DNA from: an uncultured Campylobacterales bacterium
GTDB taxonomy: Bacteria > Campylobacterota > Campylobacteria > Campylobacterales > Arcobacteraceae
Length of the DNA: 49,864 bases
Direction of reading: 5' to 3'
Assembly: GCA_947503785.1 (NCBI GenBank)
Contig: CANNFB010000018.1
Span: 1-49,864 of the forward strand
Both the position numbers and the translations under genes were made by a program. The notes under the pieces were generated by a model. It ran no database searches. It had not been told where the DNA came from and worked only from the letters and a program-made list of their open reading frames with translations. Shown here in pieces: positions 27,861-31,719 of the stretch (position 1 is its first letter; each line of letters opens with the position of its first letter).

Positions 27861-28820
27861 ATGAATATAATAAAAAAACCAACTTGGGATATTTCATCAT
27901 CAGAAGTAACACCTGAAGAGTTATTTAATAAAAGAAGAACTTTTATAAAACTAGGTGCTGCTTCTTTAGTTGCATCTGGTGCTTTAATAGAAGCACTTGC
28001 AAAAGAGAATATTCCCGTTCCAAACTTAAAATACTTAAAAGATAAAAATATCAATAATCTAAAACTAAATACTTATGAGCAAATTACAACTTATAATAAT
28101 TTTTATGAGTTTACAACATCTAAAAAAGGTGTGAAAGATATGGCTCATACTTTAAAAACTGATAATTAGGAAATAGAAATAGATGGTTTAGTAGAAAAAC
28201 CAATGAAAATCCAATTAGATGATTTAGTAAAAAACTTTTCAATTGAAGAGAGAATTTATAGATTTAGATGTGTTGAAGGTTGGTCTATGGTTGTTCCTTG
28301 GAATGGCTTTTCATTGCTAAGCTTAATTAAATTTGCAAAGCCATTATCTAGTGCAAAATATATTAGATTTGAAACTAAATATGATGAAGAGATGTTCCCT
28401 GACCAATCACGTGGAGTTTTTGCATCTATTGATTACCCTTATGTAGAAGGATTAAGAATGGATGAAGCTATGAATGAGTTATCATTTATGGCAACAGGTC
28501 TTTATGGTTCAACACTTCCCAATCAAAATGGAGCACCTTTGCGATTGGTAGTTCCTTGGAAATATGGATTTAAATCTATTAAATCAATTTCTAAAATATC
28601 TTTTGTAGATAAAGAACCACTAAATACTTGGCAACGTTCAAATAAAAAAGAGTATGGATTCTTTGCAAATGTGAATCCAAATGTTGATCATCCAAGGTGG
28701 TCTCAAAAAAGAGAAAGAGTTTTAGGAAAGTTTTTAAAACAAAAAACACTAATGTACAATGGTTATGAAAAAGAAGTTGCACATATGTACACTGGAATGG
28801 ATTTAAGAAAGTTTATATAA
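27861..28820 (+). pseudogene. msrP: msrP (periplasmic methionine sulfoxide reductase, catalytic subunit) interrupted by one in-frame TAG
   Basis: MsrP (YedY) is the Tat-exported molybdopterin enzyme that repairs oxidised methionines in periplasmic proteins, with MsrQ as its membrane haem partner. The frame runs from ATG at 27861 with a twin-arginine signal (NKRRTFIKLGAA), through NNFYEF and TLKTDN, to a TAG at 28167-28169 (codon 103), and then continues in the same frame to 28820. There it shows [14 protein letters not shown] (molybdenum-ligand Cys137), [18 protein letters not shown] in its NQNGAP form, and [12 protein letters not shown]. coli MsrP has Trp at the TAG position (DPWTLKISG against DN-stop-EIEIDG), so TGG to TAG by one base explains it. 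The rest is intact and 319 codons long. It is either a recent nonsense mutation, readthrough, or a base error. msrQ overlaps the stop by one base. Confidence 0.88.
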
Positions 28821-29386
28821 TGAAACGATTATTAATATATGTAATACTACTAACTCCCTTAGTAGTATTAAGCATGCAAATCCTAATTTTTGATAATGTA
28901 GTTGACCCTATAAAATATATATATACAGTAACAGGTGCAACAGCAGCTGTAGTACTGTTTTTTTCAATTACAATTTCTCTGATAAGTAAAAAAATAAATC
29001 TTATAAAATATAGAAGATTAGTAGGTTTATTTGGATTTTTTTATGCTCTTTTACATTTATTGAATTTTGTAGTTTTTGATGCAGAATATGATATTGGTTT
29101 TATTATTGAAGAGACACTTGATAAGCCATTTATTTATTTAGGAATGATTGCTTTTTTTATTCTTTTATTTATGAGCCTTACTTCTTCTAAAAGTTTATTT
29201 AAAAAGTATAAAAAACAACATCAGTTTATATATTTAGCTTTGATTTTAATAACAATACATTTTATAATGGCTCAAAAATCAATAACTATCCTTCAATTAG
29301 GATATATCGTAATGATTTTTATTTTAGCTTATTGTAAACTTTTACAAAAAATTGTAGAAAAAAATAAGAATAGATATTTAGATTAA
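28820..29386 (+). CDS. msrQ: MsrQ, haem-binding membrane subunit of the MsrPQ system
   Basis: This 188-aa membrane protein has about five or six helices of the ferric-reductase-like (YedZ/MsrQ) type. GLFGFFYALLHLLNF contains a likely haem histidine, and others are in KKQHQFIYLALILITIHF. MsrQ carries electrons from the quinone pool or flavin reductase to MsrP. Its ATG overlaps the msrP stop (TAATG), so translation is normally coupled to msrP; the TAG inside msrP could therefore lower MsrQ synthesis too. The frame itself is intact. Confidence 0.9.
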   Translation: MKRLLIYVILLTPLVVLSMQILIFDNVVDPIKYIYTVTGATAAVVLFFSITISLISKKINLIKYRRLVGLFGFFYALLHLLNFVVFDAEYDIGFIIEETLDKPFIYLGMIAFFILLFMSLTSSKSLFKKYKKQHQFIYLALILITIHFIMAQKSITILQLGYIVMIFILAYCKLLQKIVEKNKNRYLD

Positions 29387-29430
29387 CTCTTCATTAATCT
29401 TTTATTAGGATTCAGTTAACAGTGTAAGTG

Positions 29431-29436
29431 TATAAT
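29431..29436 (+). promoter_or_regulatory. -10 TATAAT of a candidate small RNA
   Basis: AAGTGTATAATTTTTAC places a perfect -10 box 45 bp after msrQ and about 99 bp upstream of a strong terminator, with no convincing coding frame between. Transcription would begin near 29443. Confidence 0.5.
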
Positions 29437-29442
29437 TTTTAC

Positions 29443-29565
29443 ATAGATAGGTTGACGCAGCGACTTATTTATAAAACAGAATTTTAAGATAGATCTCTTA
29501 AATATGAATAATTTTTTTATGTTTCCTTGTGTTAGGGTGTCATCCTAGATGGCACCCTTTTTTTT
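29443..29565 (+). ncRNA. Candidate small RNA between msrQ and the helicase gene
   Basis: The roughly 120-nt segment between the -10 box and the terminator has one internal hairpin (TTTAAGA 29483-29489 with TCTTAAA 29496-29502) and a less AT-rich 5' end (GGTTGACGCAGCGAC). It ends in the terminator below. I do not recognise 6S, SRP, tmRNA or RNase P motifs in it. An orphan promoter plus terminator without a credible reading frame is the pattern of an independent sRNA; a long msrQ 3' UTR is the alternative. A 14-codon frame (29504-29548) has no ribosome-binding site. Confidence 0.42.
29535..29565 (+). terminator. Rho-independent terminator
   Basis: GGGTGTCAT (29535-29543) pairs with ATGGCACCC (29549-29557), one G-T wobble, loop CCTAG, followed by eight T residues. 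It is GC-rich for this genome, so it is a deliberate element. The following 29566-29670 stretch before the helicase gene is AT-rich and I see nothing definite in it. Confidence 0.9.
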
Positions 29566-29670
29566 ATTCTAATTAATCAAGTACTTCTTTCATTTATTAA
29601 ATGAATAATAAGTCTTTTATGTTACTATTTCAAAACGAGAAAAAAACTACTATAAAGAATCAGCTAATAC

Positions 29671-31719
29671 ATGCCATTATCAAATTTAAATCAAGAACAA
29701 TTAAGTGCTGCAACTTGTCCTAAAGGATATAACCTAATAATTGCAAGTGCTGGTACAGGTAAAACTTCTACAATTGTAGGAAGAATTGCTAACTTAATTA
29801 ACAATGGAGTTAAGCCAGAAGAGATTCTTTTATTAACTTTTACAAACAAAGCTGCTGCAGAAATGGTTAATAGAATTGCTAAATTCTTTGGAAAAGATAT
29901 GGCAAAACAAGTTATGGCAGGAACTTTTCATTCTGTTTCTTATAAGTTACTAAAACAATTAAATATTAATATTTCATTGAAACAACCAAATGAACTAAAA
30001 ACACTTTTTAAATCAGTTTATGAAAAAAGAGTTTTTTATGATAGAGATGATGAAGCAAATCCTTATGATGGTGGATATTTATATGATATGTACTCTTTAT
30101 ATCTTAACTCAAATACAGGTGAAGAATTTGGAACTTGGATAAAAGACAAGAACTCTTCACATGAAATTTATACATTAATTTATGAAGATGTAGTTGATGA
30201 GTTTAATGCTTTAAAAATTAAATATGGCTATGCAAATTTTGATGATTTACTTACTATTATGCTTGATACTTTAAAAACACAAAGATTTGATTTTAAAGAA
30301 ATTTTAGTTGATGAATACCAAGATACAAATCCCTTACAGGGAAGACTATTGGATGGATTTAAGCCAAATTCTTTGTTTTGTGTTGGGGATTATGATCAAA
30401 GTATCTATGCTTTTAATGGTTCTGATATTGGTATTATTTCTACTTTTTCAACAAGATATGATAATGCTACGGTTTTTACATTAAGAAAAAATTATCGTTC
30501 TACTAAACCTATTTTAGATTTAGCTACAAAAGTAATCGAACATAATGAAAGAATTTATGATAAAAACTTAGAAGTTATAAGAACAGATGAAACAATAAGG
30601 CCAAAACTTTTAGCTTTTAATGAACTATTTGCTCAATATCAGTATATTTCTAAACTGATTTCTGAAAGTACAACTCATCATAATGATATTGCAATAATTT
30701 ATAGAAACAATTCAAGTGCAGATGGAATAGAGGCAAACTTACGTGAATATGAAATTCCAGCAAAAAGAAAAGGTGGAATGTCCTTTTTTGATTCTGTTGA
30801 AATAAAGTTTATTTTAGATGTTTTAGTTATGCAAATGTCTCATAATGATATGATGGCATTTATTCACGTTTTAGAGCATGGTAAGGGTATTGGAAAGGCA
30901 ATTGCCAAAGATATCTTTGATGCTTTGATAAAACTAGGTGATGGAGATATTTTAAGAGGATTATTTCATCCTAATCCAGATATTAATAACCCCTATGATA
31001 CTAAAAAAGTAAAAAATAGACAACTAGGTTTATTTGATGATTTTTTAGAGTTAGGTTCTATTTCAAAGTTTAAAGATTGTGGTTTTGAAGAAGCTTTTTT
31101 ATCAAACCCAATTTTAAAACATCCAAAGTTAGGTGTTGATGGTGGTAAATATATTTATGATTTTTACTTACTGATGAAGCATTTAAGAAGAACAAAAAAC
31201 CCTGAATCTTTAGTTACTAGTATTAGTTCCTCTATGATGTATTCTAGATTGAAGGATTTTTTATCCACAAAAAGAGCAACGGCAAAAGATGGAACAGTAA
31301 ATCCAATGCAAAAAACAAAATCTTTGGCAAAGATAAATCGTAAGTGTATGATTTTAAAAAACTTATCAAAAAACTTTAAAGAGCTAACAAAGTTTATTAA
31401 CTCTATGATTTTAGGTGGTTCTGAGATGAGTGAGGGTGATGGTGTAAATCTATTATCAGTTCATGCAAGTAAAGGCTTAGAGTTTAAAGAAGTATATGTA
31501 ATTGATTTAATGGATGGACGTTTCCCAAATAGAAAGCTTATGAGTAAAGGTGGAAGTTTAGAAGAAGAAAGACGTTTATTTTATGTTGCAGTTACAAGAG
31601 CTAAGGATATACTTTATTTATCTTATGCAAAATTTGATAGGATTAAGAAAATGGCATTTGTTGCCTCTCCATTTTTAAGAGAAGCTGGATTAGTTAAGGA
31701 TGATGAAAAGACTTCTTAG
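29671..31719 (+). CDS. UvrD/Rep-family ATP-dependent DNA helicase
   Basis: This 682-aa superfamily 1A helicase moves 3' to 5' on single-stranded DNA in repair or replication restart. The N-terminal Q-motif region NLNQEQLSAAT precedes Walker A SAGTGKTS (about residues 26-33). Next come motif Ia LLLTFTNKAAAEM, motif II LVDEYQDTNP, motif III GDYDQSIYAFNG, motif IV around LRKNYRS, motif V LLSVHASKGLEF and motif VI YVAVTRAKD. It is closer to Rep/PcrA than to AddA by length. The 3' end overlaps the convergent diguanylate cyclase gene by 4 nt. Confidence 0.93.
   Translation: MPLSNLNQEQLSAATCPKGYNLIIASAGTGKTSTIVGRIANLINNGVKPEEILLLTFTNKAAAEMVNRIAKFFGKDMAKQVMAGTFHSVSYKLLKQLNINISLKQPNELKTLFKSVYEKRVFYDRDDEANPYDGGYLYDMYSLYLNSNTGEEFGTWIKDKNSSHEIYTLIYEDVVDEFNALKIKYGYANFDDLLTIMLDTLKTQRFDFKEILVDEYQDTNPLQGRLLDGFKPNSLFCVGDYDQSIYAFNGSDIGIISTFSTRYDNATVFTLRKNYRSTKPILDLATKVIEHNERIYDKNLEVIRTDETIRPKLLAFNELFAQYQYISKLISESTTHHNDIAIIYRNNSSADGIEANLREYEIPAKRKGGMSFFDSVEIKFILDVLVMQMSHNDMMAFIHVLEHGKGIGKAIAKDIFDALIKLGDGDILRGLFHPNPDINNPYDTKKVKNRQLGLFDDFLELGSISKFKDCGFEEAFLSNPILKHPKLGVDGGKYIYDFYLLMKHLRRTKNPESLVTSISSSMMYSRLKDFLSTKRATAKDGTVNPMQKTKSLAKINRKCMILKNLSKNFKELTKFINSMILGGSEMSEGDGVNLLSVHASKGLEFKEVYVIDLMDGRFPNRKLMSKGGSLEEERRLFYVAVTRAKDILYLSYAKFDRIKKMAFVASPFLREAGLVKDDEKTS

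Follow-up and report, generated by a model that had tools for sequence, protein, structure and literature searches.

A conserved candidate small RNA gene between msrQ and a helicase gene in Arcobacteraceae, with predicted pairing to Shine-Dalgarno sites

The OmrA and OmrB RNAs of enterobacteria are encoded by tandem genes under OmpR control and, in the account given in PMC10342277, include ferric siderophore receptors among their targets, with their 5' ends named as the part involved. Campylobacter jejuni is described as lacking Hfq, and its non-coding RNAs and those of Helicobacter pylori as unshared except for stable RNAs such as 6S (both PMC3847290). RepG, whose target is described as a G-repeat, had no homologue beyond Helicobacter in its authors' own search, as stated in PMC8295292. 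HP1043 (HsrA) of H. pylori is presented as an OmpR/PhoB-family regulator, and its sites, as outlined in PMC5253667, consist of a pair of direct repeats whose centres are spaced by 11 bp. Within the Arcobacteraceae, Stav et al. (2019) analysed 38 intergenic regions of Arcobacter sp. L, and the text of PMC6429828 describes most of the remaining novel motifs as confined to Arcobacter and left unnamed.

The window, which is the whole 49,864-nucleotide stretch analysed here, comes from an uncultured Campylobacterales bacterium of the Arcobacteraceae (contig CANNFB010000018.1 of assembly GCA_947503785.1). The gap between msrQ and a UvrD/PcrA-like helicase gene contains a -10 box, two hairpins and a terminator (Table 1). 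A sequence-only reading had proposed a stand-alone small RNA (sRNA) gene here from a perfect -10 box, about 120 nt with no credible reading frame, an internal 7-bp hairpin and a GC-rich terminator with eight T residues, and all of these parts are present. No open reading frame of at least 30 aa lies over 29431-29565 on either strand, 6 of the 11 pairs of the terminator stem are G-C, and the 7-bp hairpin can be drawn by eye, its region being paired slightly differently in the minimum-energy fold. The predicted folding energy of the element strand is -32.5 kcal/mol (z = -4.1), a value as good as this being reached by 1 of 200 shuffles, and a terminator scan of 3 kb lists 2 terminator-like sites with 0.5 expected. 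The element thus has its own promoter and intrinsic terminator and no coding sequence, as looked for in an sRNA gene and as judged by sequence only. From the position of the -10 box we infer a 5' end at 29442-29445. Elsewhere in the window, an in-frame TAG at 28167-28169 interrupts msrP (27861-28820); the two parts match MsrP at profile positions 3-99 and 114-319, respectively, and in relative L006 msrP is mostly covered by one open frame.

Table 1. Coordinates of features in and beside the msrQ-helicase gap (window numbering)
Feature	Coordinates	Strand	Basis
msrQ	28820-29386		NCBIfam match under curated cut-off
Promoter array TTAAC-TTAAT-TTAGG-TTAAC, four boxes at 11-bp spacing	29383-29420	+	sequence
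-10 box TATAAT	29431-29436	+	read directly in the sequence
Predicted sRNA transcript, about 120-124 nt	29442-29565	+	covariance model match; extent inferred
Hairpin 1, 11 bp, loop ACGCAG	29444-29471	+	fold and covariation
Hairpin 2, 7 bp, TTTAAGA-TAGATC-TCTTAAA	29483-29502	+	by eye and covariation
Near-invariant stretch TTTTATGTTTCCTTGTGT, proposed seed, not in conserved stems	29515-29532	+	run of invariant columns
Intrinsic terminator	29534-29565	+	stem 29534-29558, T run 29558-29565 (eight T)
Extended -10 TATGTTACTAT, separate promoter-like site for the downstream helicase gene	29618-29628	+	TATGnTAnnAT pattern
UvrD/PcrA-like helicase gene	29671-31719		matches under curated cut-offs

The conservation search in relatives that had been suggested as a check finds the element in all ten genomes searched of the window's genus (E 2.0e-26 or better). 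We derived a covariance model from 39 sequences, and it matches the window at 29442-29561 (E 7.7e-15); under stricter filters, by which weak matches are lost, it has matches in 64 of the 104 Arcobacteraceae genomes, spread over 7 of the 20 genera, and, in an order sample of 248 genomes with family members included, in 15 genomes, all of them Arcobacteraceae. By genus, all 10 genomes from the window's genus have matches, as do 29 of 31 in g10, all 6 in g12, all 16 in g19 and the only genome of each of g3, g16 and g18; the window's genus appears to be Poseidonibacter, g10 Aliarcobacter in the wide sense and g12 Malaciobacter. Matches in g19 score lower (best E per genome from 2e-5 to 6e-3), but stretches from 11 of the 16 g19 genomes show the same layout of two hairpins, TTTCCTTGTGT and terminator. 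Tandem pairs with a separate promoter for each copy are present in three g12 genomes (G020, G046 and G056), and in g19 the number of matches per genome reaches four (in G137), some g19 matches lying in stretches without a helicase motif. Paired copies in g12 and g19 (L020, L026, L027, L132, L134, L137, L138 and L141) are mostly spaced by about 200 bp, two pairs (L132 and L137) by about 1 kb.

Across all genome contigs the core 18-mer is found in 37 stretches, and a hairpin and T run follow it in 17 of these, all in Arcobacteraceae or Campylobacterales records. In the remaining 20, from Flavobacteria, Firmicutes, one Sulfurimonas MAG and others, inspection by eye shows no hairpin and T run, and we regarded these as chance or coding occurrences. 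With at most one mismatch the core is present in 48 of the 104 family genomes, a count that includes false hits, since G013 and G035 (loci L149 and L150) have a one-mismatch core but lack the architecture.

In an alignment of 70 model matches (68 distinct), which was fitted to the model and contains the sequences used to build it and so favours the structure, 90.2% of cells are standard pairs, versus 72.9% in shuffles and 44-59% in a control in which the partners were slid. Changes on both sides are seen in 30 of 33 pairs, which 0 of 500 shuffles reach, and they include 12 of the 13 model pairs in hairpin 1, all 7 in hairpin 2, and 11 of 13 in the terminator, where 93.4% of cells are paired. 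Between hairpin 2 and the terminator, UUUUAUGUUUCCUUGUGU is nearly invariant and the terminator stems vary, so that a conserved seed is flanked by less conserved sequence, the pattern looked for in a trans-acting base-pairing sRNA. In G002, a genome of the window's genus, AUAUUUCCUUAU replaces the near-invariant stretch. The GC-rich 5' end had earlier been suggested as a possible seed; the GC-rich segment is real, but its seed role is rejected because it forms part of the 11-bp hairpin 1 and other sequences take its place among genera, and to judge from the alignment 29515-29532 appears the better seed candidate.

A -10 hexamer with at least 4 of 6 matches precedes the RNA in all 48 distinct loci. 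Among the 47 promoters that could be aligned, the remaining one being cut by a contig end, TTAA starts at -48 from the -10 hexamer in 29, at -37 in 36, at -26 in 11 (otherwise often TTA or TTG) and at -15 in 44; some Aliarcobacter loci have two boxes only, those closest to the -10. The full array has one exact match in the window, with 0.01 expected at three mismatches, and the occurrence of its first half alone in the window is not unusual. A consensus promoter scan does not list the -10 box at 29431 because it requires a TTGACA-like -35. The array is likely the site of a direct-repeat regulator. Campylobacter promoters carry a periodic A/T signal, and this may account for part of the 11-bp phasing.

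The terminator scan lists no terminator-like site between msrQ and the element, as would fit an element that is only the 3' end of the msrQ transcript, with the -10 box arising by chance. The reading frame upstream of the element differs between genera, however, with the -10 box and the RNA staying in place where it changes, and each tandem copy has its own promoter, which makes an origin as msrQ read-through very improbable. Downstream, the helicase gene lies within 700 bases in 43 of the 48 distinct loci, an arrangement suited to a cis-acting leader or attenuator whose terminator keeps transcription from reaching the helicase until a signal is sensed. Against this, the pattern TATGnTAnnAT lies between the terminator and the helicase start in 40 of the 43 loci, the terminator stems vary in sequence, and a helicase motif is absent from L026, L027, L086, L131, L133, L135, L136, L146 and L147, for most of which about 3 kb was examined. 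Attenuation of the helicase gene was rejected on the copies without a helicase motif and the separate promoter-like site, and we give it little chance.

A small protein gene beginning at ATGTTTCCTTGTG and encoding the peptide MFPCV was also considered, the ATG being present in 47 of 48 distinct sequences. The frame diverges past MFPC and its stops vary, however, with MFPCV followed by a stop in 10 of 47, and the peptide reading was rejected on these two features; the ATG is preceded by a T run and not by a Shine-Dalgarno sequence, and g19 copies mostly have TTTGTTTCC in its place, so that a coding role is scarcely credible. Taken together, conservation, covariation, the promoter array and terminator of its own, the copies in other contexts and the separate promoter-like site for the next gene agree with the stand-alone sRNA gene first proposed, and the comparison among genomes strongly supports an independent sRNA gene.

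The whole-window Rfam scan, another of the suggested checks, has no match in the gap at the gathering score. Among matches up to E 10 in 29380-29680 there are six, all weak and at chance level and none of them OmrA/B, and the covariance models of 6S, SRP, tmRNA and other curated RNA families have no match in the gap. The sole Rfam match in the window at the gathering score is a tRNA gene at 2-74 on the minus strand. No description of the sRNA came up in the literature searched on small or noncoding RNA of Arcobacter and Aliarcobacter, and we would class it as a new family within a known kind.

The proposed seed UUUCCUUGUGU is only partly accessible in predicted folds, though it lies outside the conserved stems. 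Its mean unpaired probability is 0.68 over 48 sequences and 0.52 in the window's own; in the minimum-energy fold it is wholly unpaired in 18 of the 48, and fewer than 6 of its 11 bases are unpaired in 20. This limited accessibility, together with hairpin loops that repeatedly contain CG (ACGCAG, UGCGAA), would suit a structured RNA that binds a protein, such as a regulator, RNA polymerase or a nuclease, rather than one that acts by base pairing. We consider protein binding unlikely, given that the best-conserved stretch is not part of the conserved stems and complements the Shine-Dalgarno sequence, and that Rfam holds no matching family.

The reading we favour, and consider probable from these comparisons, is a stand-alone gene whose product is a small regulatory RNA acting in trans, without Hfq, at Shine-Dalgarno sites. 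A search of 31 genomes, 19 from the family and 12 from elsewhere in the order, found no Hfq, with 5 of 14 control genomes positive; H. pylori is not known to have it either. In the mechanism we propose, a regulator of the OmpR/PhoB kind would bind the 11-bp direct repeats and control the sRNA gene, and the sRNA, working without Hfq, would pair through UUUCCUUGUGU with ACACAAGGAAA at Shine-Dalgarno sites and block ribosomes. The main targets, in Malaciobacter at any rate, may include outer-membrane proteins (TonB receptors and porins), although we are less sure of this step.

The window's genome has 38 ACAAGGAAA sites, of which 30 were read and 13 lie shortly before a start codon, and the genes at these sites include an outer-membrane efflux protein, a nitrous-oxide reductase and a DUF3373 protein. 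Among the proteins compared, none of the genes at these sites (30 of 38 read) is shared with those at the sites of G003, of the same genus. In G003, G107 and G020, ACAAGGAAA with ATG is found at 25 sites, 21 of them with an open reading frame of at least 40 aa, and these 21 include four TonB receptors and two porins, one porin being assigned by 41% identity to the other and having no Pfam match. Three further g12 genomes contain 33 matches; among 30 loci 19 have an open reading frame of at least 40 aa, and four of these are TonB receptors or a porin by at least 85% identity to the first set. In duplexes computed over 40 sites, a comparison made after the first hits were seen and with most proteins sorted by eye, ten outer-membrane genes have a mean of -19.2 kcal/mol versus -15.2 kcal/mol for 30 others (p = 0.0007), or p = 0.006 for 6 versus 24 when collapsed to gene families; nine of the ten outer-membrane rows are from Malaciobacter, and G036, one of four Malaciobacter genomes, gave none. 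The longest pairing is at a porin site in G046 (15 contiguous pairs), followed by 13 pairs at L296, before a solute-binding-type protein as classed by eye, and a TonB receptor site has 12 contiguous pairs in two genomes.

A control pattern composed of the same letters, CAAAGGAAA with ATG, has 35 matches in G003, G107 and G020, 30 taken as loci, with 17 distinct proteins of at least 40 aa. None of these 17 is a TonB receptor or porin, whereas 6 of the 21 ACAAGGAAA proteins are (p = 0.02; counting an outer-membrane efflux protein among the controls raises this to 0.08). Pfam was used for 8 of the 21 ACAAGGAAA proteins and for 2 of the 17 controls, the others being assigned by eye from their first residues. 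The numbers of ACAAGGAAA sites in these three genomes are 10, 6 and 9, versus 5, 8 and 13 for the reversed pattern, an excess being absent in two of the three. Across the family ACACAAGGA-N-ATG is not clearly enriched in genomes that have the RNA, with a mean of 4.86 in 64 genomes with the RNA versus 3.97 in 38 without (p = 0.12); read backwards, the pattern averages 1.6 and 1.2 respectively. Among 30 porin starts, CACACAAGG precedes 4 of 5 in g19 and ACAAGGAAA precedes 10 of 17 in Aliarcobacter, and neither precedes any of the 5 in the window's genus or of the 3 in g12, g16 and g18. Setting the longer and stronger outer-membrane duplexes against the mixed porin and site counts, we regard base pairing at Shine-Dalgarno sites as likely, and outer-membrane targets as a lead.

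Two further sequence patterns were seen. Many of the porin leaders L236-L255 have a GCGCG, GCGAA or GCGAT motif about 25-50 bases before the start, which resembles the GCGAA hairpin loops of the g19 sRNA copies, and it is possible that the two share a protein-binding hairpin. The sequence ACACAAGGAAATTTTATAAATG is present in six Aliarcobacter genomes, with a one-base-shorter form in a seventh, and in L266, L276, L290 and L294 (Aliarcobacter) it precedes a 173-aa gene.

The sRNA spans 7 of the 20 genera of Arcobacteraceae, whereas the C. jejuni and H. pylori non-coding RNAs are described as unshared and RepG as confined to Helicobacter. With this range, and with no Hfq found in the 19 family genomes searched, it lends itself to the study of riboregulation without Hfq, and the copies in tandem and at dispersed places represent sRNA gene duplication inside one family. 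The outer-membrane link, if true, would represent convergent evolution of envelope control.

RepG of H. pylori and the CJnc sRNAs of C. jejuni are likewise sRNAs of Campylobacterota, although RepG is described as reading a G-repeat and the Arcobacteraceae sRNA would read AAGGA. The sRNA promoter has direct repeats in the same 11-bp phase as that described for HP1043/HsrA, which makes a regulator of this type a candidate here, with the repeat being TTTAAG there and TTAAC or TTAAT, up to four times, here. The strongest Malaciobacter sites favour TonB receptors and a porin, and the sRNA may for this reason work like OmrA/OmrB. Tandem genes are common to both, and OmpR control and TonB receptor targets, reported for OmrA/OmrB, are here only proposed. 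The two differ in that the 5' ends are described as the part involved in OmrA/OmrB and the stretch before the terminator is probably that part here, and in that the gap has no Rfam match and Hfq was not found in the 31 genomes. The fullest form of the parallel, in which an Hfq-free Arcobacteraceae family of one to four copies, controlled by a phased-repeat regulator, silences TonB receptors and porins as an independent counterpart of OmrA/OmrB, is one that we put forward tentatively and with some doubt.
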